Position numbers and translations under genes: made by a program. From assembly GCA_913049845.1 (NCBI GenBank), contig CAJWZE010000002.1, forward strand, positions 1 to 64,000: 64,000 nucleotides of DNA, given 5' to 3'. Below, one piece after another: positions 1 to 13,486 of this stretch. Positions within the stretch are counted from its first letter, which is position 1. Each line of letters begins with the position of its first letter. The notes under the pieces were generated by a model. The model searched no databases, was not told the origin of the DNA, and saw nothing but the letters and a program-made list of their open reading frames with translations. This stretch comes from an uncultured Cryomorphaceae bacterium. GTDB taxonomy: Bacteria; Bacteroidota; Bacteroidia; Flavobacteriales; Schleiferiaceae.

Positions 1-322
1 CTCCTGTATAGGTCGAGTAGGCACTTGCTACGAGGTCGTGATCGACATTTACGTCTGCATTTGGGAGCACTCGTTGTAAACCGTCTTTAACGATGTCCTT
101 CAAGCTTTCAGAGGATGCGCCAGCACCGTAGAAGTAAACGTATTTTACTTGGTTATAGATGGTTTTAACCATCTCGTTCTCACTCAACTCCTCGTTAATA
201 AAAGAAGCTGAATGAAAATATGGGTTGAACCCCATTGTAGAGAAGCGCTTGTGTTCAGTGCCGTTTGATTTTAAGACCACCCAGTCACATTTCGTAGAAC
301 CGCTTTCTCCAATTAATATCAT
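1..322 (-). CDS. BadF/BadG-type ATPase, N-acetylglucosamine kinase-like (partial, C-terminus off window)
   Basis: Manual reverse translation from 322: MILIGESGSTKCDWVVLKSNGTEHKRFSTMGFNPYFHS...YFYGAGASSESLKDIVKD; GESGSTKCDW phosphate-1 motif of the ASKHA BadF family. Confidence 0.75.
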   Translation of the reverse strand, partial: MILIGESGSTKCDWVVLKSNGTEHKRFSTMGFNPYFHSASFINEELSENEMVKTIYNQVKYVYFYGAGASSESLKDIVKDGLQRVLPNADVNVDHDLVASAYSTYTG

Positions 323-373: not shown

Positions 374-1360
374 TTAAGCTAGACGCTCAACTAGGTTTGC
401 CAAACGTGCAGAGTAGCCAGCTTCGTTATCGTACCAACCTAGAACTTTAACCAAGTTTCCTTTTGCTGAAGTTACGCCTGCATCGAAGATACAGCTGTGC
501 TTGTCGCCAATGATATCAGAGCTTACGATTGGATCTTCAGTATACATTAGGATGCCCTTCAAAGGACCTTCAGCAGCTTCTTTCATTGCGTCATTGATTT
601 CCTCGGCAGTAGCTTCAGTTTTTAATTGGACCGTAAGATCTGTTGCAGAACCTGTGATGGTAGGAACACGCATTGCGTATCCATCTAGTTTACCTTTCAA
701 CTGTGGCAATACCAAAGCAACAGCCTTAGCAGCACCTGTTGAAGTAGGTATCATATTTACTGCTGCTGCACGTGCACGACGCTTGTCGGAGTGCGGAGCA
801 TCTTGGATGCGCTGATCAGAAGTGTATGCGTGGATGGTGCACATAAAACCGCTCTCGATACCGAACTTTTCGTCCAATACTTTTGCCATTGGAGACAAAC
901 AGTTCGTAGTACACGAAGCGTTGCTTACCATTGTATCTTTTGCAGTCAATTCATCGTCGTTAACGCCTAAAACGATTGTTTTAATGTCGCCTGATGCCGG
1001 AGCACTGAGCACTACTTTCTTAGCACCTGCTTTGATATGCTTGCCCATACCCCCAGCATCGCGGAAGAAACCTGTAGATTCAATCACTAGATCAACACCT
1101 AGCTCAGCCCAAGGCAAAGTTGCAGGATCGCGCTGAGCGTACACAGTAATTTCTTTACCGTTTATTATTAAGCTGTTTTCAGTGTGCTCAACTGTACCAT
1201 TGAAACGACCGTGCGCACTATCGTATTTCAAGAGGTGTGCAAGCATATCGGTAGCTGTTAAATCATTTATTGCTATAATTTCCACGTTGTTTTTTTCGAT
1301 CAAGTTTCTGAACGTCAAACGACCGATGCGGCCGAATCCATTGATTGCAATTTTACTCAT
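374..1360 (-). CDS. gap: Type I glyceraldehyde-3-phosphate dehydrogenase
   Basis: [14 protein letters not shown]; catalytic [25 protein letters not shown]-like C-terminus. Confidence 0.98.
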
Positions 1361-1374
1361 AATCTAGTGTGTTG

Positions 1375-2358
1375 TTAGGTTGCTAGAATTCTAGCGATTG
1401 TTAGCATTTCTTCGTCTAAATCTGTGGTCTTAGAAATTGCTTCTGATAGTGGTGTATAAACTATTTTTTGGTTGATAATTCCCGTCATAACCTTGGCTTG
1501 ACCTTTGATTAATCCCTTTACGGCGTAGAAGCCTAATACAGAGGCTAGAACACGGTCGTTAGTTGATGGTGATCCTCCACGCTGCGTATGACCGAGGTTC
1601 GTCACCTTCACGTCAATGCTTGGGAATTCTTTTTTCACTGCTTTTGCAATGTCAAATATATCGCCGAGGTGGTTCCCTTCTGCGACCATAACAATATTCG
1701 AGGTCTTACGCTTTGCCTGTGCTTGGCGAAGGTCTTTAAATAAATCATCGTACGTACTCTTCTTTTCTGGGAGAATGATACTTAAAGCACCGGTAGCCAT
1801 GCCTGTCGAGGCAGCTATATACCCTGTATCTCTACCCATTACTTCAACAAAAAAAAGACGGTTGTGTGAAGAGGCGGTATCGCGGATTTTGTCAACACTC
1901 TCAATAACTGTATTAGTAGCTGTATCGTATCCAATGGTGAAATCTGTCCCGTATAAATCATTATCAATGGTTCCTGGGACACCGATAACACGAATATTGT
2001 GTTCTTCGGCAATCTTTAACGCTCCGGCGAAAGAACCGTCACCGCCAATTACTACTAGTGCATCGATATCTCTTTTTTTTAGATTTGCCGCAGCCTTTGA
2101 ACGTCCTTCAGATGTTCTGAACTCTTGACTGCGCGCACTTTTCAAGAAAGTACCTCCAAGTGCAAGGATGTGCTTAACACTATCTGTGGTCAATTCTACG
2201 ATATCATCTTCTATCATTCCTTCGTATCCATGGTAAGCTCCAAATACTTTTTTTCCATAGTATAAAGCAGTTCTTGTCACTGCACGAATAGCAGCGTTCA
2301 TCCCAGGAGCGTCGCCCCCGGAGGTAAGGACCATAATATTGTTAATCTCTTCAGACAT
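1375..2358 (-). CDS. pfkA: ATP-dependent 6-phosphofructokinase
   Basis: MVLTSGGDAPGMNAAIRA, GTIDNDLYGTDFTIGYDTA, EVMGRDTGYIA; start placed at MSEEINN rather than the longer ORF start. Confidence 0.96.
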   Translation of the reverse strand: MSEEINNIMVLTSGGDAPGMNAAIRAVTRTALYYGKKVFGAYHGYEGMIEDDIVELTTDSVKHILALGGTFLKSARSQEFRTSEGRSKAAANLKKRDIDALVVIGGDGSFAGALKIAEEHNIRVIGVPGTIDNDLYGTDFTIGYDTATNTVIESVDKIRDTASSHNRLFFVEVMGRDTGYIAASTGMATGALSIILPEKKSTYDDLFKDLRQAQAKRKTSNIVMVAEGNHLGDIFDIAKAVKKEFPSIDVKVTNLGHTQRGGSPSTNDRVLASVLGFYAVKGLIKGQAKVMTGIINQKIVYTPLSEAISKTTDLDEEMLTIARILAT

Positions 2359-2363
2359 AGTCG

Positions 2364-2371
2364 CAAAGATA
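2364..2371 (-). promoter_or_regulatory. TATCTTTG, Bacteroidetes -7 box (TAnnTTTG) 5 nt from the pfkA ATG
   Basis: Direct motif match to the Bacteroidetes sigma-A -7 consensus. Confidence 0.55.
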
Positions 2372-2378
2372 GCAACTA

Positions 2379-2399
2379 AGTGTAAATAATACACTTATT
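2379..2399. promoter_or_regulatory. Palindromic operator TAAGTGTA-N5-TACACTTA in pfkA/NUDIX-regulator divergent intergenic region
   Basis: Perfect 8-bp arms around AATAA; related site at 3237-3257 before susC. Confidence 0.65.
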
Positions 2400-2457
2400 A
2401 AATAATTACTCCTTATATTCATTGACCCCAAAATTAAAAAACATACTTAAACTGACC

Positions 2458-3162
2458 ATGAGTGAATTGAAGGATATCAATCCGAATATTAGCGTTGACT
2501 GCGTAATATTTGGTTTCGATGGACAACGTCTTAATGTTCTTCTTATTCAAGAAAAAGACATCGGCCAGGGTATTCTCAGAATGCGTCTCCCAGGAGATTT
2601 GATTCATCGTGGCGAAGGGCTTGACGAAAGTGCAGACCGCGTATTGTGGGAGCTTTCGAGCTTAAAAAATGTTCACCTGCAACAATTTCACACCTTCGGA
2701 GATCCAGTTCGTGTAAACGGTGAAAAGGATAGAAAATGGCTAGAGCTGTACCGTGCAAACCCTAATGAGCGGGTAGTTACAGTTGCTTATTATGCCCTGG
2801 TTAAGATGGTAGACTTTGCTCCAAATCCGTCGAGTTTTGCGGGCGAGGCTTTGTGGGTTAATATTCGTGAAATTCCAGAATTGGCCTTTGACCATAATTG
2901 TATTGTCGATGTTGCCTTGACCAAGCTTCAGAGACATTTTGAACTGAATAAAACGGCTTACGAGTTGCTACCGCCTAAGTTTACATTAAACCAATTGCAG
3001 CAGTTGCATGAGGCCATTACTCAAGAAGAACTAGACAAGCGAAATTTTCGGAAAAAGATCGTCCGTGAAAAGATGATTGAGGCCACCGAAGAAAAACAGA
3101 AAGGAGTGCTTCATAAACCAGCCCGTTTGTATCGGGTTAAATCAGAAGATAGCCTCGTTTAA
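2458..3162 (+). CDS. NUDIX-domain plus winged-helix transcriptional regulator (NrtR/AraR-like family)
   Basis: N-terminal NUDIX-like fold (VDCVIFGFDGQRLNVLLIQEK...LPGDLIHRGEGLDESADRVLWELSSL) with C-terminal wHTH (FTLNQLQQLHEAITQEELDKRNFRKKIV); ATG at 2458 preferred over TTG at 2422. Confidence 0.85.
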   Translation: MSELKDINPNISVDCVIFGFDGQRLNVLLIQEKDIGQGILRMRLPGDLIHRGEGLDESADRVLWELSSLKNVHLQQFHTFGDPVRVNGEKDRKWLELYRANPNERVVTVAYYALVKMVDFAPNPSSFAGEALWVNIREIPELAFDHNCIVDVALTKLQRHFELNKTAYELLPPKFTLNQLQQLHEAITQEELDKRNFRKKIVREKMIEATEEKQKGVLHKPARLYRVKSEDSLV

Positions 3163-3236
3163 AGCGAAAAGCACCTCGTTTGGTTAAAAAACGGGCCGAT
3201 TCAGTTAATACCGCCTTTTTACACGCTTCGAAGCAA

Positions 3237-3273
3237 TAAGTGTATTCTTTACATTTGAAGAATACAACACTTA
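3237..3273. promoter_or_regulatory. Operator-like inverted repeats overlapping susC promoter -7 box (TACATTTG at 3250-3257)
   Basis: TAAGTGTA-TTCTT-TACATTTG resembles the 2379-2399 palindrome; additional GTATTCTT/AAGAATAC inverted repeat 3242-3265; susC ATG at 3284. Confidence 0.6.
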
Positions 3274-3283
3274 ACACCAAAAC

Positions 3284-6200
3284 ATGAAGCGATTCTCACG
3301 TTTTCTCGTGGCTCTTTCACTACTAATAGGCAGCACAGTTTATGCTCAGTCTGTTACGGGTACGGTGGTAGATGAGTTCAATGAACCATTACCGTCGGTA
3401 GCCATTTCAGTTGATAGAGGTGGAGCGACCTCTACCAAGTCCAATGGTCAATATTCCCTTTCATTGAAGCCGGGGAAGTACGCCATAACCTATTCTTTTG
3501 TCGGTTACGAACCGGTCGTTAAAGAAGTAGATTTAAAAGGCAAGCAAATCATCAATGTAACGATGAAGCCTTCGAGCAACCAACTCGACGAGGTTGTAAT
3601 TGTAGGATATGGTGTGGCGCGTAAGCGAGACCTCACCGGCTCGGTAGTTTCTTTGAAGACCAAAGAGCTCACGGATATCCCAACACCTTCTTTTGAAAAT
3701 GCCATTCAAGGAAAGGCAGCCGGGGTACAGGTAATTACCGGTTCAGGTATTGCCGGTTCAGGCTCTATGGTGCGTATACGTGGAGTCGCGTCTATTTCTG
3801 CAGGTGGTGATCCGCTTTATGTAGTAGACGGTATACCAATTACACAAGATTATTTCTTGAATGGTAACCGCGGTGGTTTTAACACTAACCCACTTGCAAC
3901 GATTAATTCGAACGATATCGAATCTGTGGAGATCTTGAAAGATGCAGCAGCAACAGGTATTTACGGTTCGCGTGGTTCAAACGGGGTTGTATTGATAACC
4001 ACAAAAAGAGGTAAGAGCAAGAAGTTGGCGTACAACTTCTCCTCGCGCGTTGGTTTCTCGAACCCAACGGCATTGCCGAATATGATGAACAAAGACGAGT
4101 ACCTTCAGATGTACGAAGAGTCATGGGTAAACGACGGCAACGTAGGTGTGCCTGAGCTTCCAGGTAACCGTATGAGTTGGTCAGAAGCGCAAGCTGCTGA
4201 AGGAACGGATTGGGTACAAGAAACCATTCGCCAAGGGATTAAGCACGGGTACGACTTTTCTGCTTCGCGCGCTTTCAAGGGCGGAAACTTCTACGCCGGC
4301 CTATCGTACAATGACAACCAAAGCTATTTGGCGGGTAACTCGTACGAGCGTTTAGCGGGACGTATCAATACAGATTTCGACATTACAAAACGATTCAAAT
4401 TAGGATTGAGCACGTCGCTTTCCCGCGGAGTGAACAACCGTATCGATGCCGCCTGGTCGGGAGGTTTTGGTGAGGCGATGTCTCGTGCACTTCCAATCTA
4501 TCCTATTTACTACGCAGAAGACGAGTACGACGACGACGGCAACCTCGTTGCTTCCGCGGGTGATTACTGGTTGAAAGGCGGTATAAGTCTAAACCCAGTG
4601 GCCCAGCGCGACATGAAAGATTGGACAGCTATTGAGGACCGCTCGATCAATAACATTACAATGAACTACAAATTGAACAACAACTGGACCTTCCGCGGTC
4701 AAGGGGCGTTCGATTACATGCATTTCGAAGATCACATTTGGGAGAAGCCGGGTTACGATCCTACTTATAAGGACGCGGACGGCAATTTCTTGGGTCGTGC
4801 AAATATGTACCCGTACAGCGTTTACAATACTTCTGGTAACGTTACAGCAAGCTACATCAAAGATTTGGGCGAAGAACATCACATCAACTGGTTGATTGGT
4901 TCAGAGTACCAATACAATAGAATTAGGCGTTGGGACGGCTACTATGACAGCGAGGCTGTTGGTCAGATCCGCGAGACGGGTCAGTGGGTGAACGATCCTT
5001 TGAGCTACATTGAAGAATATGCTTTTGCTTCAGCCTTTACTCGTTTGAATTACAACTTCAAAGGCAAATACTATGCAGAGGCGTTGATTCGTCGCGACGG
5101 CTCTTCGAAGTTTGGTCCGAACAACAAGTACGGAAACTTCCCTGCGGCTTCGGTGGCATGGGTTCTTTCTGACGAAGACTTTATGGCTAATCTACCTGCA
5201 GTGAACTTCTTGAAGTTTAAAACATCCGTAGGTAAGAACGGTAACTCTGCTATCCCTTCGTACCAGTGGTTTGGTTACTACAACGTAGCTAACAACGGTT
5301 ATGGCGGTCAGACCTACCGTTACCCTGTGATTCGCGAAAACGCAGATTTGCGTTGGGAGACCTCTACGACTTATGATGTAGGTCTTGAGTACGGATTGTT
5401 CAACGATCGCATTTCGGGTGAATTGGCTTGGTACCGCAAGCAAACGAACGACATGTTATTGAACGTTACCCTTCAAGGTTCTACAGGATTCGGTTCTTGG
5501 TGGGACAACGTAGGTAGCGTTTACAACACAGGTGTTGAATTTACGATCAAATCCAGAAACATCGTGACAGATAACTTCACGTGGACCACAGACTTCAACA
5601 TTGCACGTAACTACAACCAGATTAGTTCTATCGGAGAGTACTCGCCAGATGCAGTAAGTGGTGGCACGAACGATACTCGTGTCGTTGTGGGAATGCCAAT
5701 TGGTACGAACTACCTCGTTCAATTCTCACATGTAGATCCGGCGAACGGTCTTCCAGTTTACCTCGACAAAGATGGCAACGAGACCTACACTTGGGACCTT
5801 CAGAACCGTGTGGCAGTAGGTAACGTAATGCCAGACGCCATTGGTGGTTTGACCAATACGTTTAATTACAAGAACTGGGAGTTTGGCTTTATGTGGGTAT
5901 TCACAATAGGTGGAGATATCTACGACAGCTCTTCGAAGCGTCAGATGGGTGTTGTGACCGATTGGAATATGCGTACAGATTTGTTCGACCGCTGGCAACA
6001 GCCGGGTGATATTGCAACATACCCGCGTCTCAGCCGCGACTACCGTACCTACGGTTCAAATACGGAGTGGATCAACACCAACCTATGGTTACACGACGGG
6101 ACCTACGCTCGTCTGCGCAACGTGAAGTTGAGCTACCGCATACCGCAAGAAAAATTAACCAAGAACGTAAAAGGTATGACCGTAAATTTTACCTGTACGA

Positions 6201-6352
6201 ACCTCATTACGCTTACAAATTTCATCGGTTTGGATCCAGAGATTGCTCGTGACTTCGAGAATGCTACCGATCGTAACATGTCACCGAACATTACGTATCT
6301 CACCCCACCGCAGGAGAAGACATACAACATCGGTGTAAATATTAACTTTTAA
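3284..6352 (+). CDS. SusC/RagA-family TonB-linked outer membrane protein
   Basis: Signal peptide, CarboxypepD_reg-like domain (VTGTVVDEFNEPLPSVAISV), plug motif VDGIPI and NDIESVEILKDAAATGIYGSRGSNGVVLITTKRG. Confidence 0.97.
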   Translation: MKRFSRFLVALSLLIGSTVYAQSVTGTVVDEFNEPLPSVAISVDRGGATSTKSNGQYSLSLKPGKYAITYSFVGYEPVVKEVDLKGKQIINVTMKPSSNQLDEVVIVGYGVARKRDLTGSVVSLKTKELTDIPTPSFENAIQGKAAGVQVITGSGIAGSGSMVRIRGVASISAGGDPLYVVDGIPITQDYFLNGNRGGFNTNPLATINSNDIESVEILKDAAATGIYGSRGSNGVVLITTKRGKSKKLAYNFSSRVGFSNPTALPNMMNKDEYLQMYEESWVNDGNVGVPELPGNRMSWSEAQAAEGTDWVQETIRQGIKHGYDFSASRAFKGGNFYAGLSYNDNQSYLAGNSYERLAGRINTDFDITKRFKLGLSTSLSRGVNNRIDAAWSGGFGEAMSRALPIYPIYYAEDEYDDDGNLVASAGDYWLKGGISLNPVAQRDMKDWTAIEDRSINNITMNYKLNNNWTFRGQGAFDYMHFEDHIWEKPGYDPTYKDADGNFLGRANMYPYSVYNTSGNVTASYIKDLGEEHHINWLIGSEYQYNRIRRWDGYYDSEAVGQIRETGQWVNDPLSYIEEYAFASAFTRLNYNFKGKYYAEALIRRDGSSKFGPNNKYGNFPAASVAWVLSDEDFMANLPAVNFLKFKTSVGKNGNSAIPSYQWFGYYNVANNGYGGQTYRYPVIRENADLRWETSTTYDVGLEYGLFNDRISGELAWYRKQTNDMLLNVTLQGSTGFGSWWDNVGSVYNTGVEFTIKSRNIVTDNFTWTTDFNIARNYNQISSIGEYSPDAVSGGTNDTRVVVGMPIGTNYLVQFSHVDPANGLPVYLDKDGNETYTWDLQNRVAVGNVMPDAIGGLTNTFNYKNWEFGFMWVFTIGGDIYDSSSKRQMGVVTDWNMRTDLFDRWQQPGDIATYPRLSRDYRTYGSNTEWINTNLWLHDGTYARLRNVKLSYRIPQEKLTKNVKGMTVNFTCTNLITLTNFIGLDPEIARDFENATDRNMSPNITYLTPPQEKTYNIGVNINF

Positions 6353-6364
6353 TCCTTAGCAATT

Positions 6365-7774
6365 ATGAAAAAGATAGTAGCACATTTAGCACTTGTAGCG
6401 ATTGTAGTAGGAAATTCATCTTGTGAGCGTATCCTAGATTTCAAAGCGGATACTACGTCTCAGATTCCAGCAGATTCAGCCATCGTAACCATCGAGGATG
6501 CGGAGCAGTTGTTGGTGAGTGTATATGATGTTGCGGCAAACGCCTTCAACGGCCGTTTTCAAAACATCCCTGAAGTAATGTCGGACAACCTTGCAGACCC
6601 ACTAGGTTTGAATGGGGAGTATGCGCAAATTTACCGTTGGACGTCTTCGTTCTTTAACGGTTCTTTTGGCGGCGAATACCGAGATGCATACATCGCCATA
6701 TACCGCGCTAACACCTTGTTGGAAGAGGTAGCTGACCTAGAAGGTGCAACCGCAGAAAGCATCGAAAGAATTTCTGCTGAAGCAAAATTCATTCGCGCAT
6801 TTTGTCATTACCATGTGGTTCGTATCTGGGCCTTGCCTTACGGCTACACCTCAGACAACAGCCACCTCGGTATTCCATTAAAGTTGAGCGCCGATCAGAC
6901 GCCGCAAATGCGTGCGACAGTTGCTGACGTATATGCCGCAATTGTTTCAGATCTATTGGACGCCGAGGTAGATCTTCCTGCAGACAATGGCATCTTTGCC
7001 GACCAGATGGCGGCGAAAGGTCTTTTAGCTAAGGTGTATTTGGAGATGGGCGATTTCGCCAATGCAAAAGCCAAAGCAGCTGAGGTAATTGGTTCGGGCT
7101 ACTACAGCTTAGAGCAAGATTTAACGAAGCGTTACAACGACCATCCAAATACGAGCTTACCGGCTGAATTCATCTTCACTTTGGTGAGCACAAACGAAGT
7201 AATTGGTGCCGACACCTTGGTTGACGAGCGCGGTTCAGGTTATGTGTGGAACTATCGTTCTGACGATCCAAATGCTAATCCTGCGCTTAAAGCCTCTGCG
7301 GATCTATATGTTGCGGCGACAAGCGATACCAACGACTTGCGTGGTCAAACGTGGTACAACATCCGCAATGCAGGTTCAGCTGACGAGCTGTACATGATCA
7401 GCAAGTTTGATGCAAGCTTTATCGATGTGCCGCTTATTCACCTGACAGAAATGTATTTGATCTATGCGGAATGTAACGTTCGTTTGAATGGCGATGCTGA
7501 TGGGACAGGATTGGGCTACATTAACGATTTAAGAACACGAGCAAACGTGGCTTCCTTGAGTTCGCTTTCGGTAAGCGATGTGATGAACGATCGAAGATTG
7601 GAGATGGCCTGTGAGGGCGATCGTCTGTTCCAGCTTAAGCGTCAAGGAGTGCTCGGCGAAATTCAGAAGATTAGAGGAGTAGATTGGGATTGTCCAGGAA
7701 TGGTACTCCAATTTCCTAACTTTGAAGGAACCGCCCAAGGATTTATTTATAACGAAGAAGGAGGCTGCGAATAA
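6365..7774 (+). CDS. SusD/RagB-family nutrient-binding outer membrane lipoprotein
   Basis: Lipobox-like GNSSCE; RAFCHYHVVRIWALPYG, LIHLTEMYLIYAECNVRLNG, RRLEMACEGDRLFQLKR. Confidence 0.95.
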   Translation: MKKIVAHLALVAIVVGNSSCERILDFKADTTSQIPADSAIVTIEDAEQLLVSVYDVAANAFNGRFQNIPEVMSDNLADPLGLNGEYAQIYRWTSSFFNGSFGGEYRDAYIAIYRANTLLEEVADLEGATAESIERISAEAKFIRAFCHYHVVRIWALPYGYTSDNSHLGIPLKLSADQTPQMRATVADVYAAIVSDLLDAEVDLPADNGIFADQMAAKGLLAKVYLEMGDFANAKAKAAEVIGSGYYSLEQDLTKRYNDHPNTSLPAEFIFTLVSTNEVIGADTLVDERGSGYVWNYRSDDPNANPALKASADLYVAATSDTNDLRGQTWYNIRNAGSADELYMISKFDASFIDVPLIHLTEMYLIYAECNVRLNGDADGTGLGYINDLRTRANVASLSSLSVSDVMNDRRLEMACEGDRLFQLKRQGVLGEIQKIRGVDWDCPGMVLQFPNFEGTAQGFIYNEEGGCE

Positions 7775-7788
7775 AGCAGTTTAGCGAT

Positions 7789-8262
7789 ATGAAAAAAGTA
7801 ACATTATTTATTGCGAGCGCCTTATTGATTATGGGCGCATGTAAGCGAGAAGTTGGGCCTATCGGACCAGCATACGAATCCGGTGCAGGTATCGTCGGTA
7901 CTTGGGAGTTGACCAATGCGGATCAAACCGATGTAACGCTACCCGTACCAGAAACCAGAGATATCAGTTCGTTCTACCAAAATAATCAAGATAAATGGGT
8001 GGTGGTGTTTAGCGAGGACAGCACCTATACGGTGAATTCACAGGGCCCAGGTTTCGATTTATTTGGTGTCGGAGGCACTTGGAAGTATAATACCCCAGAA
8101 TTCCCTTCTGAGTTGCACCTAACTCAGTTTGACACCGTAACGACGGTATTTCCTTTGGGCAATATGCCCCGTACAATAGATCAGAACGTGAGTATTGTCT
8201 GCGACCGTATTCGTTGCGACAAGCCAAGTGTTTCTTACAAATTAACCTTCACTAGAAAATAG
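7789..8262 (+). CDS. Lipoprotein, lipocalin-like/DUF5004-like, SusCD-associated
   Basis: Lipobox LLIMGAC; IVGTWELT...W(V)VVFSEDSTY pattern; co-directional after SusD; family assignment tentative. Confidence 0.55.
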   Translation: MKKVTLFIASALLIMGACKREVGPIGPAYESGAGIVGTWELTNADQTDVTLPVPETRDISSFYQNNQDKWVVVFSEDSTYTVNSQGPGFDLFGVGGTWKYNTPEFPSELHLTQFDTVTTVFPLGNMPRTIDQNVSIVCDRIRCDKPSVSYKLTFTRK

Positions 8263-8268
8263 GCTCAA

Positions 8269-9123
8269 ATGAAAAATATTAGCACACTAATTGCATTGAT
8301 TTTGGGCCTAAGTGCTTCGGCTCAAATTTCAACAATTCCAGACGAAAATATTGATCCGGCAGATTCTTTAGAGATCATTTTTGATCCTGCTGCTTTAGAT
8401 CTTGCAGTTGGTCACCAGGACCTTCTGAAGCAAGCCGTGGATGCAGGAGAAGACATGTACATCTGGACTTGGAAGCCAGCAGCTCATCCAGACGGCCATC
8501 CTTATGTCAACGGCACAGGTTCTGCGCCTTGGAAAAATTCTAACGAGGCGATGAAGATGACCAAGAATTCTGACGGTACGTTCTCTTGGAAGATTGTACC
8601 TACCTTATTCTACGAGGTAGACGCAGCCAAGGTATATGCTGATGATATTCACTTCTTAGTGAAAGCAAAAGACGGTGGTGGTTATGGAGATCCGGATGTA
8701 AAGACTGACGACCAAAGCATTGCCATCGATCCTCCTGCTACGGAGCGCAATCCGTTCTACCACTTCCCTACTAAGGTAAAGATTGACGACGTAGTTACGC
8801 TGCGTTATGACAACTGGAGAGAGGAAAAAGTATCTATGCAAAATTTAGCATCCGACGAATGTTATGCCTACGCTAAGGTGGTGTATACAAATGGCTCAGT
8901 TGCTCAGATAGAAAGCCCTTTCAATGCAGGTACTAACCCGAATCTAAAAATGACCTTTATAGGTGATGGAAACTTTGAAATGCATCTCGTTCCTAATGAG
9001 CATTTTACTCTTGATGCGAATAATGAAGTCGATTATTTAGAGTTCATTGTAATTAAGAAAAACTTTGCAACGGGCGCCGATAGAGTTACAGAAGCGGTCC
9101 TTATTCCGATTTTCTGTCAATAA
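8269..9123 (+). CDS. Secreted SusCD-associated protein of unknown function (possible SusE/F-like or E-set domain)
   Basis: Signal peptide MKNISTLIALILGLSASAQ; MYIWTWKPAAHPDGHPYVNGTGSAPWKNSNEAMKMTKN resembles surface glycan-binding E-set sequence; family tentative. Confidence 0.5.
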   Translation: MKNISTLIALILGLSASAQISTIPDENIDPADSLEIIFDPAALDLAVGHQDLLKQAVDAGEDMYIWTWKPAAHPDGHPYVNGTGSAPWKNSNEAMKMTKNSDGTFSWKIVPTLFYEVDAAKVYADDIHFLVKAKDGGGYGDPDVKTDDQSIAIDPPATERNPFYHFPTKVKIDDVVTLRYDNWREEKVSMQNLASDECYAYAKVVYTNGSVAQIESPFNAGTNPNLKMTFIGDGNFEMHLVPNEHFTLDANNEVDYLEFIVIKKNFATGADRVTEAVLIPIFCQ

Positions 9124-9194: not shown

Positions 9195-10580
9195 ATGCAG
9201 AACAAACCTAAACTCAGTTTTTGGCAAATTTGGAATATGAGCTTCGGCTTTTTGGGTATCCAGTTTGGATACGCGCTACAAGGCGGATTCATGAGCCGAA
9301 TTTTTGAAACGCTCGGTGCCGACGAGTACAGCCTTCCATTGTTGTGGATAGCAGCGCCGCTCACGGGTCTTATTGTCCAGCCCATTATTGGGCAGATGAG
9401 CGACAACACTTGGCATCCAAGGTTTGGTCGTCGCCGTCCTTATTTTTTAGTAGGGGCAGTGCTCGCATCACTAACTCTTTTGGTTGTCCCGCACAGTTCG
9501 GCCCTTTGGATGGCAGCAGGTGGACTATGGATTCTTGATGCCACGATGAACATCAGTATGGAGCCGTTCCGCGCTTTGGTCGCGGATAAGTTGCCAGACA
9601 GCCAGCGCAGCTTCGGCTTTGTTGTTCAGACACTGATTATTGGTGTCAGTACTTGGGTAGCTTCAAACCTGCCGCTGATGGTGAGCTCTTTAGGCGTGAG
9701 CAATGAAGCATTGCCTGGCGCTGTGCCGATTTCGGTAAAGGTCGCCTTTGGAATAGGAGCCGCGGTATTCATTCTGTCTATTCTATATACCGTTTTTACG
9801 ACCGACGAATATCCACCGGAGGACATGGAAGCTTTCCGTGCTGAGCAAAAGGAGAAATCGGGTTTCGCAAATACTATTTCTGAAGTATTCAAGAACATCG
9901 CGGATATGCCGAAGACTATGAAGCGTTTAGGTGTGGTTCAATTCTTCTCATGGTTTGCCTTCTTCTGTATGTGGTCTATGGCCAACCCAGCATTGACCGA
10001 TCACGTGTTTAATGCTGCGAAGCCGGCGACCATTGATTTTGCCGCAACTACTGCGGAGCAAATAGAGATTTATCAAATAGCGGACAAAGCATTTAACGAC
10101 GCGTCAAACAGGGTAGGCTCGTACATGGGAAATTACGGTTTGAGCTCTATGATATTTGCATTGTTATTAACCCTTTGGACGGCCAAAAAACGCATCAATA
10201 GAAAATTTGTTCACATGTCTAGCTTGTTTGCTGGGGCTTACGGGTTCATTAGCATGTACTTCATTACGGAGCCATCAATGCTTATTATTAGCTTCGTTTG
10301 CATCGGATTTAGCTGGGGATCTACCCTGTCTATGCCGTATGCTATGTTGAGCTCCACCCTTGACCCAAAAAGAATGGGTGTGTATATGGGCATCTTCAAT
10401 ATGTTTATTGTAATCCCACAGATTGTTGCAGCAACCTCGTTAACGACTATCTACAAAGGAGTATTTGGTGTAGATCCAATAAACGCGATGCTGCTTGCAG
10501 GCACATCGCTGGTCATCGCAGGTCTGTCGAATTTTTTAATTACTAACAAGAAGGCAGTGACATACACACCTGAGACCTAA
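9195..10580 (+). CDS. MFS sugar transporter, SLC45/GPH-like
   Basis: FWQIWNMSFGFLGIQFGYALQ, PIIGQMSDNTWHPRFGRRRPYFLVGA, multiple TM segments. Confidence 0.88.
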   Translation: MQNKPKLSFWQIWNMSFGFLGIQFGYALQGGFMSRIFETLGADEYSLPLLWIAAPLTGLIVQPIIGQMSDNTWHPRFGRRRPYFLVGAVLASLTLLVVPHSSALWMAAGGLWILDATMNISMEPFRALVADKLPDSQRSFGFVVQTLIIGVSTWVASNLPLMVSSLGVSNEALPGAVPISVKVAFGIGAAVFILSILYTVFTTDEYPPEDMEAFRAEQKEKSGFANTISEVFKNIADMPKTMKRLGVVQFFSWFAFFCMWSMANPALTDHVFNAAKPATIDFAATTAEQIEIYQIADKAFNDASNRVGSYMGNYGLSSMIFALLLTLWTAKKRINRKFVHMSSLFAGAYGFISMYFITEPSMLIISFVCIGFSWGSTLSMPYAMLSSTLDPKRMGVYMGIFNMFIVIPQIVAATSLTTIYKGVFGVDPINAMLLAGTSLVIAGLSNFLITNKKAVTYTPET

Positions 10581-11453
10581 TTAAAGCGGTCTTTTTTGCT
10601 TTCGGAATTCGCGGGGGGAAATATTTTTTATCTTTAAGAAGGAACGGTTGAATGAAGAACTAGAGTTGAACCCGCTCTCTTCAGCGACCTCTGACATTGG
10701 CTTGTTAGTATTGACAAGCAGGTGTGAGGCGACTGTAGTGCGGAGCTGCATCAAGTAGTCGGTAAAGGTCAGTCCTGATGTCTGACGGAACCAACGGCTA
10801 AAGCTCTGCTCAGTCATGCTTGCGATATCTGAGATTTCGGCAAGTGTTATGGTTTGTTGGTAATTGTCCTGAATGTATTTAGAAACGCGTTCCATACGTT
10901 TGCTAATCTTCTGACTCATGACGTTGCTGTACGCACTTGTCGTAGAAATAGTCTTAAGTTCTTTTCGCTCCGCAATAGAAGCCATCAGGCTGAAGAAGGC
11001 CCCTATGCTTTTTAAGGAATTGGTTCCAACTATATTTGCGAAATCTTCGTGCTCTTCTGGTGTGAATTGTCCCAGGTCAACACCAAAACTCATAGCTTTA
11101 AAAAGTGGCCCCAATGCTGCACTTTCTTTAAATGAATTTAGCCATTCTTGGGTAAATTGGAGTCCCCAACATTCCCGATCCATTATCATTTCTTCTTCGT
11201 CTGAAGCCACAAAGTTGTGGGGTAGATAAGGGCCGAGTAAGAATGCCTGTCCGACTTTGAATTCAACAATCTTGTTTCCAATAAAAGCGAGGCCTTCGCC
11301 TTTGACCACATAGGTGATTTCAATTTCTGGATGGTAGTGCCAGTAGTCGGTAAAAATGGATGGCCCACGTTGACCGACGCTTTGTGAAAGTATATAGCTG
11401 TGGTAGCTTCTGTCTTTTTCGTCAATACGTATGTTTTCGATCGTCGCTTTCAT
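10581..11453 (-). CDS. AraC-family regulator with N-terminal cupin
   Basis: YHPEIEITYVVKGEGLAFIGNKI cupin; C-terminal HTH_18 (ITLAEISDIASMTEQSFSRWFRQTSGLTFTDYLMQLR...VAEESGFNSSSSFNRSF). Confidence 0.93.
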   Translation of the reverse strand: MKATIENIRIDEKDRSYHSYILSQSVGQRGPSIFTDYWHYHPEIEITYVVKGEGLAFIGNKIVEFKVGQAFLLGPYLPHNFVASDEEEMIMDRECWGLQFTQEWLNSFKESAALGPLFKAMSFGVDLGQFTPEEHEDFANIVGTNSLKSIGAFFSLMASIAERKELKTISTTSAYSNVMSQKISKRMERVSKYIQDNYQQTITLAEISDIASMTEQSFSRWFRQTSGLTFTDYLMQLRTTVASHLLVNTNKPMSEVAEESGFNSSSSFNRSFLKIKNISPREFRKQKRPL

Positions 11454-11857
11454 TGCTCAAATTCGCATATTACGGCTTCCCAACGATAAAATACCGAGCC
11501 GCTGTTCTTGTCGTAGCTGAGTAAAGGTTCTTTTTCTCACCAGTATTCGAAGCTTCTCGCCTTATATGAAGCAATTACGACTAATACCCATCTCGAATAT
11601 TCGCTCGTTGCTTCGAGGATGTGATAACTGCCTTTTGGCACGCTATGGGTGAACAGGGATGTTCTCCGTACCCTTACAAAAGAGCCCAATTCTTGACACA
11701 AATTTGCGAAAAGGAAGTTTAAGGCGCTATTCTTCATTTTTTGTAGTATAATGCGATAATATGGTTAAAAACCGGCAGAAAAGGCTTGTTTTGAGCGATT
11801 TCTATGTGTTAATTTTAAGAAGTAATCGATACATTAATTACTAACCAAATTTTTAAT

Positions 11858-13486
11858 ATGAAAAAGTTTTACGCTTTAGCAGCTGCCTCGTTCCTAGGAG
11901 TAAGCGCATTGGCACAAACAACTTACAGCGTGACCTTCCAGGTTGATATGGGTTCTGCCACCATCAACTCTAACGGTGTTCACGTTGCGGGGTCGTTCCA
12001 GTCTTGGTCTCCAAGCACGACTTCATTGACGCAGGTAGGCACATCATCTATCTATTCAACGACTGTAACTGTCAACGCAGGACAGTTGGAGTATAAATTT
12101 TTGAACGGAAACGCATGGGGCGACGATGAGAGCGTTCCGGCGCCAATCCAAGTAGGCACTAACGGTAATAGTAACCGTTGGGCTGTGATTTCTCAGGATA
12201 CTACACTGCCAGCAGTAATGTTCGGCGGTGCTGCTCCTGCAGGTCAAAAAGCGATACAATTCAAGGTGGATATGGCGCTTCAGACTGTTTCTTCAGATTC
12301 AGTTCACGTAGCGGGTAACTTCCAAGGTTGGGATCCAGCGAAGTCGCAGATGGTTAATTTTGATGGCGTACACCGTTACATTGCTTATGTAGGCAAGACA
12401 GATTCTACGTACTTCAAGTTTATAAACGGTAACGGATGGAGTGTTGTTGAATCGGTGCCTTCTGCTTGTCAGGCTTCTTCTGCGGGTATTCTCCAAGGTG
12501 ATAACCGATTTTACATAGATACGCTTAGTAGTATCTACGAAGTCTGCTACTCGCAATGTGGTCCATGTACAGTAGTTCCGACGTACGACATTACTATCAA
12601 TGTTGATGTAAGCTCTTTGACTGCATGTTCGATGATTGACTCTGTAACACTTGCTGGTCCAATCAACGGATGGGGCGGTGAGTTGATGACTGATCCTGAC
12701 GGTGATGGTGTTTACTCCATATCTTACCTTAATGTTGATTCAGGTGATTTCCAGTTCAAGGCACGTTACCACCTAGCGGGTGCGACCAACTGGGAAGGCG
12801 GAGGCAACAAAATTGTTGTTGTAAGCTCTGACTCCGTAGTTGCGCCTCGTTGTTTCGGTAACGATACGTACGGTCCATGTCCTACAACTCCACCTACGGC
12901 TGATGTAACATTTATTGTTGACTTCACGCAGGCATCTTTCACTCCAGCAGATACAGTTTACCTGATGGGTAACTTCACGCAGTGGAGTGCGAATGCTATT
13001 CCAATGGTGGCTCACTCTCAAGCAGGTCAGTACATCGCTACTGTTGCTCAGTACTGTCCAGGTACTATGGAGTACAGGTTCTCTAATGGCGATCCGTCAA
13101 ACAACTCTAACCACGAACCAGTTCCTGTTGATTGTGGTGTAGACAACGGTGTAGGCTCGTACAACCGTTTCTTCGCGCGGACAGGCTCTGTAGATACTGT
13201 AAAGCACATTTACGGTGCTTGTTCATTTATCTCTATTGAAGAAACCGGATTGGATGCTTTAGTCATCTACCCAAACCCGATGACTGATGTTGCGACTATC
13301 GCTCTAGGTAACTCTGATTTTTATACTGTTCGTGTAACGGACATTACTGGCCGTTTGGTTGCTGCTATGGGAAATACTCAGGGCAATGTTGAGTTGAACG
13401 CCTCAGAAATGGTTCGCGGTATGTATTTCGTGAATATCGCGAACTCTAAAGGTGAGTTGAGAACAATGAAGATTATCGTAGAATAA
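11858..13486 (+). CDS. T9SS-secreted protein with four E-set/glycogen-binding (CBM48/CBM20-like) repeats and type-A sorting domain
   Basis: Repeats FQVDMG..NGVHVAGSFQSWSPS, FKVDMA..DSVHVAGNFQGWDPA, INVDVS..DSVTLAGPINGWGG, FIVDFT..DTVYLMGNFTQWSAN; C-terminus VIYPNPMTDVATIALGN...VRVTDITGRLV. Confidence 0.8.
   Translation: MKKFYALAAASFLGVSALAQTTYSVTFQVDMGSATINSNGVHVAGSFQSWSPSTTSLTQVGTSSIYSTTVTVNAGQLEYKFLNGNAWGDDESVPAPIQVGTNGNSNRWAVISQDTTLPAVMFGGAAPAGQKAIQFKVDMALQTVSSDSVHVAGNFQGWDPAKSQMVNFDGVHRYIAYVGKTDSTYFKFINGNGWSVVESVPSACQASSAGILQGDNRFYIDTLSSIYEVCYSQCGPCTVVPTYDITINVDVSSLTACSMIDSVTLAGPINGWGGELMTDPDGDGVYSISYLNVDSGDFQFKARYHLAGATNWEGGGNKIVVVSSDSVVAPRCFGNDTYGPCPTTPPTADVTFIVDFTQASFTPADTVYLMGNFTQWSANAIPMVAHSQAGQYIATVAQYCPGTMEYRFSNGDPSNNSNHEPVPVDCGVDNGVGSYNRFFARTGSVDTVKHIYGACSFISIEETGLDALVIYPNPMTDVATIALGNSDFYTVRVTDITGRLVAAMGNTQGNVELNASEMVRGMYFVNIANSKGELRTMKIIVE

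Follow-up and report, generated by a model that had tools for sequence, protein, structure and literature searches.

A putative AraR-type Nudix-winged-helix regulator of alpha-glucan and central carbon genes in Flavobacteriales and its conserved palindromic operator

Described regulators and the present locus

In the literature searched, the NrtR-family sugar regulators described were AraR and XylR of Bacteroides (PMC4666351, PMC3878776). AraR of Bacteroides thetaiotaomicron (BT0354; PMC4666351; PDB 5bs6, 5dd4 and 5deq) shares fold, domain order, the helix DKRNFRK and the operator geometry GTGT-N7-ACAC with the protein studied here, which we call REG. Both regulons mix SusCD uptake with sugar catabolism, but the genes that go with AraR are araMPRDAB, and those that go with REG are alpha-glucan genes, pfkA-gap, gap2 and pckA. 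XylR (BT0791) and the ADP-ribose-responsive NrtR are, like REG, Nudix-winged-helix proteins whose sensor domain has a degenerate Nudix motif, but their targets (xylose and NAD synthesis) differ from those of REG. SusR, the starch regulator of Bacteroides, controls SusCD and alpha-glucan enzymes as REG would; however, SusR is membrane-bound, activates its targets and has long direct repeats (PMC3878776), whereas REG is soluble, belongs to the Nudix-winged-helix type and has a palindrome of 21 bp.

The alpha-glucan PULs of marine Flavobacteriia share SusCD, GH13 and GH65 with the REG locus. They differ from it in that the REG locus has an operon beginning with pfkA-gap and its own Nudix-type regulator adjoining. 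A term search of a paper on these PULs (PMC11093988) gave no mention of a regulator or of phosphofructokinase. The wider literature search, which covered few subscription papers, turned up neither an account of a regulon like this one nor any regulator of Nudix type for pfkA, for maltodextrin use or for gluconeogenesis, and REG is set apart from the known members of its family by its regulon.

REG may control glycolytic genes (pfkA, gap) together with gluconeogenic ones (pckA, gap2), a feature that it would have in common with Cra/FruR of enterobacteria, HexR and CceR; those proteins are of the LacI or RpiR families, with fold and operator unrelated to those of REG. Marine Bacteroidota are consumers of much algal and bacterial storage glucan, and, to our knowledge, little is known of the regulators that govern glycolysis and gluconeogenesis in them. 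If the reading given below is true, a regulator with a conserved operator over SusCD uptake, phosphorolysis, pfkA-gap, gap2 and pckA would be a testable carbon switch; the NrtR/AraR family would reach from single-sugar control into central metabolism, and starch uptake would be tied to a switch between burning and making sugar in marine bacteria.

The gene locus and the regulator protein

The window, meaning the whole 64-kb stretch of DNA that was analysed, starts at a contig end. The genes of the locus are as follows.

2..322, minus strand: BadF/BadG-type sugar kinase, N-terminal part, cut by the contig end (51% identity to the kinase of locus L107)
374..1360, minus strand: gap, type I glyceraldehyde-3-phosphate dehydrogenase, 14 bp past pfkA (TIGR01534)
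1375..2358, minus strand: pfkA, ATP-dependent 6-phosphofructokinase, 327 aa (TIGR02482, 405 bits, cut-off 371)
2458..3162, plus strand: REG, AraR/NrtR-type Nudix-winged-helix protein, 234 aa (Pfam, PDB and fold matches)
3284..6352, plus strand: susC, SusC/RagA-type outer-membrane receptor (TIGR04056, 747 bits)
6365..7774, plus strand: susD (PF14322, PF07980)
7789..9123, plus strand: two genes in SusE/F-like position, DUF5004 (7789-8262) and DUF4961 (8269-9123) (Pfam, synteny)
9195..10580, plus strand: MFS sugar transporter, sucrose/proton-symporter-like; the MFS gene of L109 that carries an operator is of this family

Because the window starts at a contig end, only pfkA and gap of their operon were visible in the preliminary description, which held that direct control of pfkA by a PUL regulator would be unusual. 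Where the contigs of relatives are longer, the operon reads pfkA, gap, BadF-type kinase, beta-phosphoglucomutase, GH65 phosphorylase and GH13, and gene order places pgmB, GH65 and GH13 after the kinase in L016, L017, L023, L024, L031, L033 and L034. In other genera it continues with a second GH13, methylglyoxal synthase and an MFS transporter, and the divergent side reads REG, secreted GH13, susC, susD, DUF5004 and DUF4961. SusCD together with GH13 and GH65, by which an alpha-glucan PUL is recognised, was found in relatives with intact contigs; the window's own GH genes of this operon fall beyond the contig end. Wherever gene order was read, alpha-glucan operons adjoin REG and araMPRDAB linkage is absent. 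The genes pfkA and gap are the first genes of a maltodextrin-phosphorolysis operon at the same locus, so their co-regulation follows from operon structure, and the surprise gives way to a coherent logic of the locus.

Methylglyoxal synthase lies within the pfkA-gap-GH65 operon in several genera (e.g. L113:6557-6958) and could be an overflow valve. In one MAG the GH65 gene appears to be split over two frames (L019:1993-4318), by assembly error or as a pseudogene.

The identity of REG as an AraR/NrtR-type NUDIX-winged-helix protein, read earlier from the translation, agrees with its domain matches and with both sequence and fold matches to 5bs6. Pfam matches above gathering scores were NrtR_WHD (1.4e-24), AraR_C (5.5e-9) and NUDIX (3.9e-5), with the N-terminal Nudix-like domain followed by the NrtR/AraR winged helix as is required for the family. 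The nearest solved relative is AraR of B. thetaiotaomicron (BtAraR; 5bs6, E 2.9e-35, 36% identity), which is also the best structural match of the predicted REG model (E 6e-20, TM about 0.7). Around residues 46-71 the Nudix catalytic motif GX5EX7REUXEEXGU is absent, and the degenerate sequence there suggests a sensor-type domain. Against the NtrR equivalog NF050029 (ADP-ribose responsive) REG scored 87.9 bits, below the curated cut-off of 400. We place REG in the NrtR/AraR family, and not as an AraR ortholog.

3034..3054, plus strand: recognition helix DKRNFRK, REG residues 193-199, identical to D178-K184 of BtAraR

The helix D193-K199 is invariant across 26 aligned orthologs. In BtAraR, K179, R180, N181 and K184 contact the GTGT-N7-ACAC operator (PMC4666351), and the REG-linked operator equals it in core and spacing. 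Among the BtAraR DNA contacts the helix residues are identical in REG, and the wing pair K204-R205 is replaced by H-K. The L-arabinose pocket (BtAraR numbering) retains R86, F129 and H131, while R34, F36, G48 and F49 are replaced; next to it REG has an insertion of about 15 residues, in which there are conserved charged positions. Since the pocket is only partly retained, L-arabinose is unlikely to be the ligand of REG, which would rather be a larger or phosphorylated sugar.

The palindromic operator, its conservation and its other target genes

The following sequence elements lie around the REG gene.

2364..2371, minus strand: pfkA -7 box TATCTTTG, 5 nt past operator 1 and 5 nt before the ATG (consensus match only)
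2377..2397, no strand: operator 1, perfect palindrome TAAGTGTA-N5-TACACTTA in the pfkA/REG gap (sequence; arms kept in relatives)
2414..2421, plus strand: candidate -7 box of the REG gene, TATATTCA, with TATCTTTA or TATCTTCA in relatives (proposed from sequence)
3199..3208, plus strand: conserved element ATTCAGTTAA (ATTCnGTTAA; ATTnnGTTAA in relatives), upstream of the susC -7 box
3237..3257, plus strand: operator 2, imperfect, in the susC promoter (sequence, matrix rank and near-invariance in the 8 nearest species)

The palindrome TAAGTGTA-AATAA-TACACTTA is perfect, as the preliminary description stated, and lies two bases to the left of the position given there (2379-2399). The susC copy TAAGTGTA-TTCTT-TACATTTG is exactly where it had been placed, and its right arm TACATTTG (3250-3257) does fit a TAnnTTTG -7 box. 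A nested repeat GTATTCTT/AAGAATAC (3242-3249/3258-3265), pointed out at the same time, is present in the window and is not conserved in relatives; it was rejected as a functional element because its second arm varies among them, reading AAGAGTAC, AAGGATAC, AAGGGTAC, AAGAGAAC or AAAAGAAC.

At up to three mismatches the window holds 3 sites, a number reached in 0 of 100 dinucleotide shuffles (mean 0.30). A weight matrix trained on the pfkA/REG sites of the window itself and of its relatives ranked operator 1 first (30.5 bits) and operator 2 second (15.7 bits), with 6.4 at third place; for comparison, 320 bases of a Markov background with like AT content reach 4.4 bits at the 99% point and 16.5 bits at the 99.9% point. 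On the genome scale, sites were found by pattern searches. The genome-wide scan suggested earlier stayed near the control in the own genome, where three mismatches gave 11 sites (control pattern 7) and a looser core pattern gave 14 (control 16), and rose far above it in the genus, where 25 genomes gave 88 sites with one mismatch allowed against 5 for the reversed control pattern. Because the own-genome scans are weak against their controls, the case rests on the comparison between genomes. Matches with two or three mismatches within coding sequence (C58, a MurF-like gene, C47, C50, C73, C100) were regarded as chance.

One further candidate site of the own genome, TTAGTGTTATTTGGACACTTA (18.3 bits; L009:1501-1521, equal to G000:C18:14690-14710), lies between RidA-like and SecA-like genes and is followed by TATCTTTG. 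At 11454-11857 of the window, where an AraC-type gene is the divergent neighbour, no operator was found (best -6.1 bits); a CBM/GH13 pair homologous to the window gene 11858-13486 is operator-bearing in other genera.

Nearly every species of the genus has kept the gap-pfkA/REG arrangement with its palindrome, as have many other genera within the order, and the gene order gap-pfkA/REG-susC is intact in all genus loci read. Footprinting thus found the palindrome kept beside orthologous regulators across genera, and not missing there, which had been named beforehand as evidence against a shared operator. Within the genus the arms are near-invariant, while the spacer (AATAA, ATGTT, AAGTT, ACAAT, ATGGT) and the flanks vary; other genera and families have TWAGTGTA-N5-TACACTWA at the same position. 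Where pfkA-gap is distant from REG (G025, G033), a degenerate site is still present at pfkA.

Sites also occur together with the regulator. In the family and order, genomes with a REG ortholog had 141 sites in 33 genomes (mean 4.3), against 4 sites in 21 genomes (mean 0.2) without any NrtR-type protein; genomes with weaker homologs only had 15 sites in 14 genomes. This contrast holds within the family alone (p = 1e-4), for genomes that are not phylogenetically independent. The pfkA and gap2 genes of REG-less genomes are without operator. Few or no sites despite REG were seen in G035, G048 and G054, and family f8 has weaker sites only. We infer that REG binds the operator.

At pfkA, the geometry of operator, -7 box and ATG is the same in 11 of the 13 genus loci tested, and the other two read TATCTTCG; in other genera the last three operator bases are the first three of the -7 box TAAGTTTG. 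Both versions, judged by position, would suit steric repression. For pfkA a leaderless transcript is predicted (window 2356-2371), as the box ends about 5 nt before the ATG genus-wide.

At susC, the site is near-invariant between diverged flanks in 8 species, the window's own and the seven closest to it, and sister clades have the half-site AAGTGTA only, at altered spacing to the -7 box. In other genera and families the operator upstream of susC is perfect or near-perfect (L104 to L109, L113, L119, L120), as is also that before the MFS gene of L109. REG control of susC is likely ancestral and probably persists in the window's species, though weakened. The element ATTCAGTTAA lies exactly 41 nt from the susC -7 box in each genus member where it was found, and is perhaps an activator site, e.g. 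for the AraC-type protein at 10581-11453. As to the proposal that one regulator serves itself, uptake and glycolysis, the conserved shared operator and the co-occurrence of regulator and sites speak for it, pfkA-gap as an isolated glycolytic target has to be given up, and the susC site is weak in the genus.

The predicted regulon is broader than first proposed, with gap2, pckA, glycogen/starch enzymes and sugar porters added. Recurrent alpha-glucan targets outside the locus are a GH13/CBM pair, GH31, GH57, glgB, glgE and small CBM-type proteins; further recurrent site-bearing genes are sugar porters, TonB receptors, gap2 and pckA. The gap2 gene, a second GAPDH of 480 residues (NF006139), bears the operator in those members of the genus in which it was found; the own genome (G000:C12) is among them, with a weak site (3.5 bits) recognised by orthologous position only. 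An aspartate after the second strand is typical of NAD-linked GAPDH, and the segment there reads AIND in gap and AVRS in gap2; since gap2 is without this aspartate, it is possibly NADP-linked and biosynthetic. The pckA operator is present in several other genera and families; it was looked for upstream of pckA in the window's genus and is absent, so pckA is not a target there.

In the genus, a secreted IgGFc-binding/CHU_C-tailed protein has perfect or one-mismatch operators just upstream (L123, L135, L146, L152, L156). A second MFS transporter carries an operator in seven genus loci including the own genome (L122, L139, L143, L148, L150, L159, L161), and in five of these seven it is divergent from a Gfo/Idh/MocA oxidoreductase.

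Proposed mechanism and alternative readings

We consider it probable that REG is an AraR-type repressor acting on TWAGTGTA-N5-TACACTWA over the maltodextrin operon, itself, SusCD and wider carbon genes, and that a sugar-type ligand releases it. The sites, their conservation and co-occurrence with REG, the fold and the DNA-reading residues are computed; binding, repression, the ligand, its releasing effect and the direction of control are what we infer. REG would act as a dimeric factor with Nudix sensor and winged helix. Without ligand it would sit on the pfkA/REG operator and the susC-promoter operator, and would block the pfkA-gap-kinase-pgmB-GH65-GH13 operon, expression of REG itself and the operon for uptake by SusCD. 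An alpha-glucan-derived sugar or sugar phosphate would enter the Nudix pocket and take REG off the DNA. In the genus and family the reach of REG would extend to additional enzymes of starch and glycogen, to sugar porters, and to gap2 and pckA, and REG would be a carbon-metabolism regulator, not a one-locus switch.

That the palindromes are RNA hairpins or terminators, a role that inverted repeats could equally have, is very improbable, because they have no GC-rich stem with T-run, the same arms stand in promoters of many unrelated genes, and the operator of BtAraR has this same GTGT-N7-ACAC geometry. The sites might instead serve a second NrtR-type paralog (G000:C37:7733-8335 type), alone or jointly with REG. 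This paralog retains DKRN and most recognition residues, and in three genomes a near-perfect operator stands at the start of a REG paralog (G032, G038, G051; L164:1982, L303:1992, L305:2012), so paralogs may share sites or cross-regulate. However, most genomes with weaker homologs only are site-free (none in G068, G072, G074, G081, G083, G085, G092 and G094), the operator travels with the REG gene, and the promoter of the G000 paralog is without site (best -6.1 bits), which makes this reading improbable. A narrower role in the window's species, where REG would control only pfkA-gap and itself and the susC copy would be a promoter element with a chance arm, is unlikely, though it deserves more weight than the others. 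The right susC arm is under -7 box constraint regardless, and in sister clades AAGTGTA stands alone at shifted spacing whereas the unrelated ATTCnGTTAA holds its exact distance. Against it, the copy is the second-best site in 64 kb, it is near-invariant between diverged flanks in the 8 nearest species, and susC carries perfect or near-perfect operators in at least five other genera.

Operator positions may give a hint of the direction of control. At gap2 the operator end lies 74-77 nt from the -7 box in nine genera (L169, L177, L212-L232, L272-L276, L283), with exceptions of 52 in G063, 63 in G061, 85 in G048 and 100 in G039; the neighbouring distances vary (degP stop to operator 0-83, box to ATG 21-35). 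At pckA the distance to the -7 box is mostly 51-54 nt. Such near-fixed upstream positions suggest activation, by which REG would be a functional analogue of Cra. They would also fit REG being mainly an activator, as would the susC operators of other genera, which end 12-17 nt before the -7 box, near the usual activator position. This reading is nevertheless quite unlikely, as the pfkA operator overlaps or nearly abuts its -7 box, the right arm of the susC operator is the -7 box in the window's genus, and the characterised relative AraR is DNA-bound when ligand-free and released by its sugar (PMC4666351). Repression by REG from core promoters could be combined with activation of gluconeogenic genes from the near-fixed upstream sites. 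We put forward only tentatively, as somewhat less probable than its opposite, such a Cra-like dual switch in Flavobacteriales, in which ligand-free REG would repress alpha-glucan uptake and pfkA-gap and activate gap2 and pckA until a glycolytic sugar phosphate releases it.

Helical phasing of the gap2 and pckA sites was tried: for 8 different spacings p was 0.05 at a period of 10.5 bp and 0.005 at 11 bp, and with the 100-nt spacing of G039 added it rose to 0.18 and 0.02, respectively; phasing was dropped as not robust to G039 and post hoc, with spacings that share ancestry. A terminator-like hairpin separates the gap2 operator from the -7 box in several genomes.
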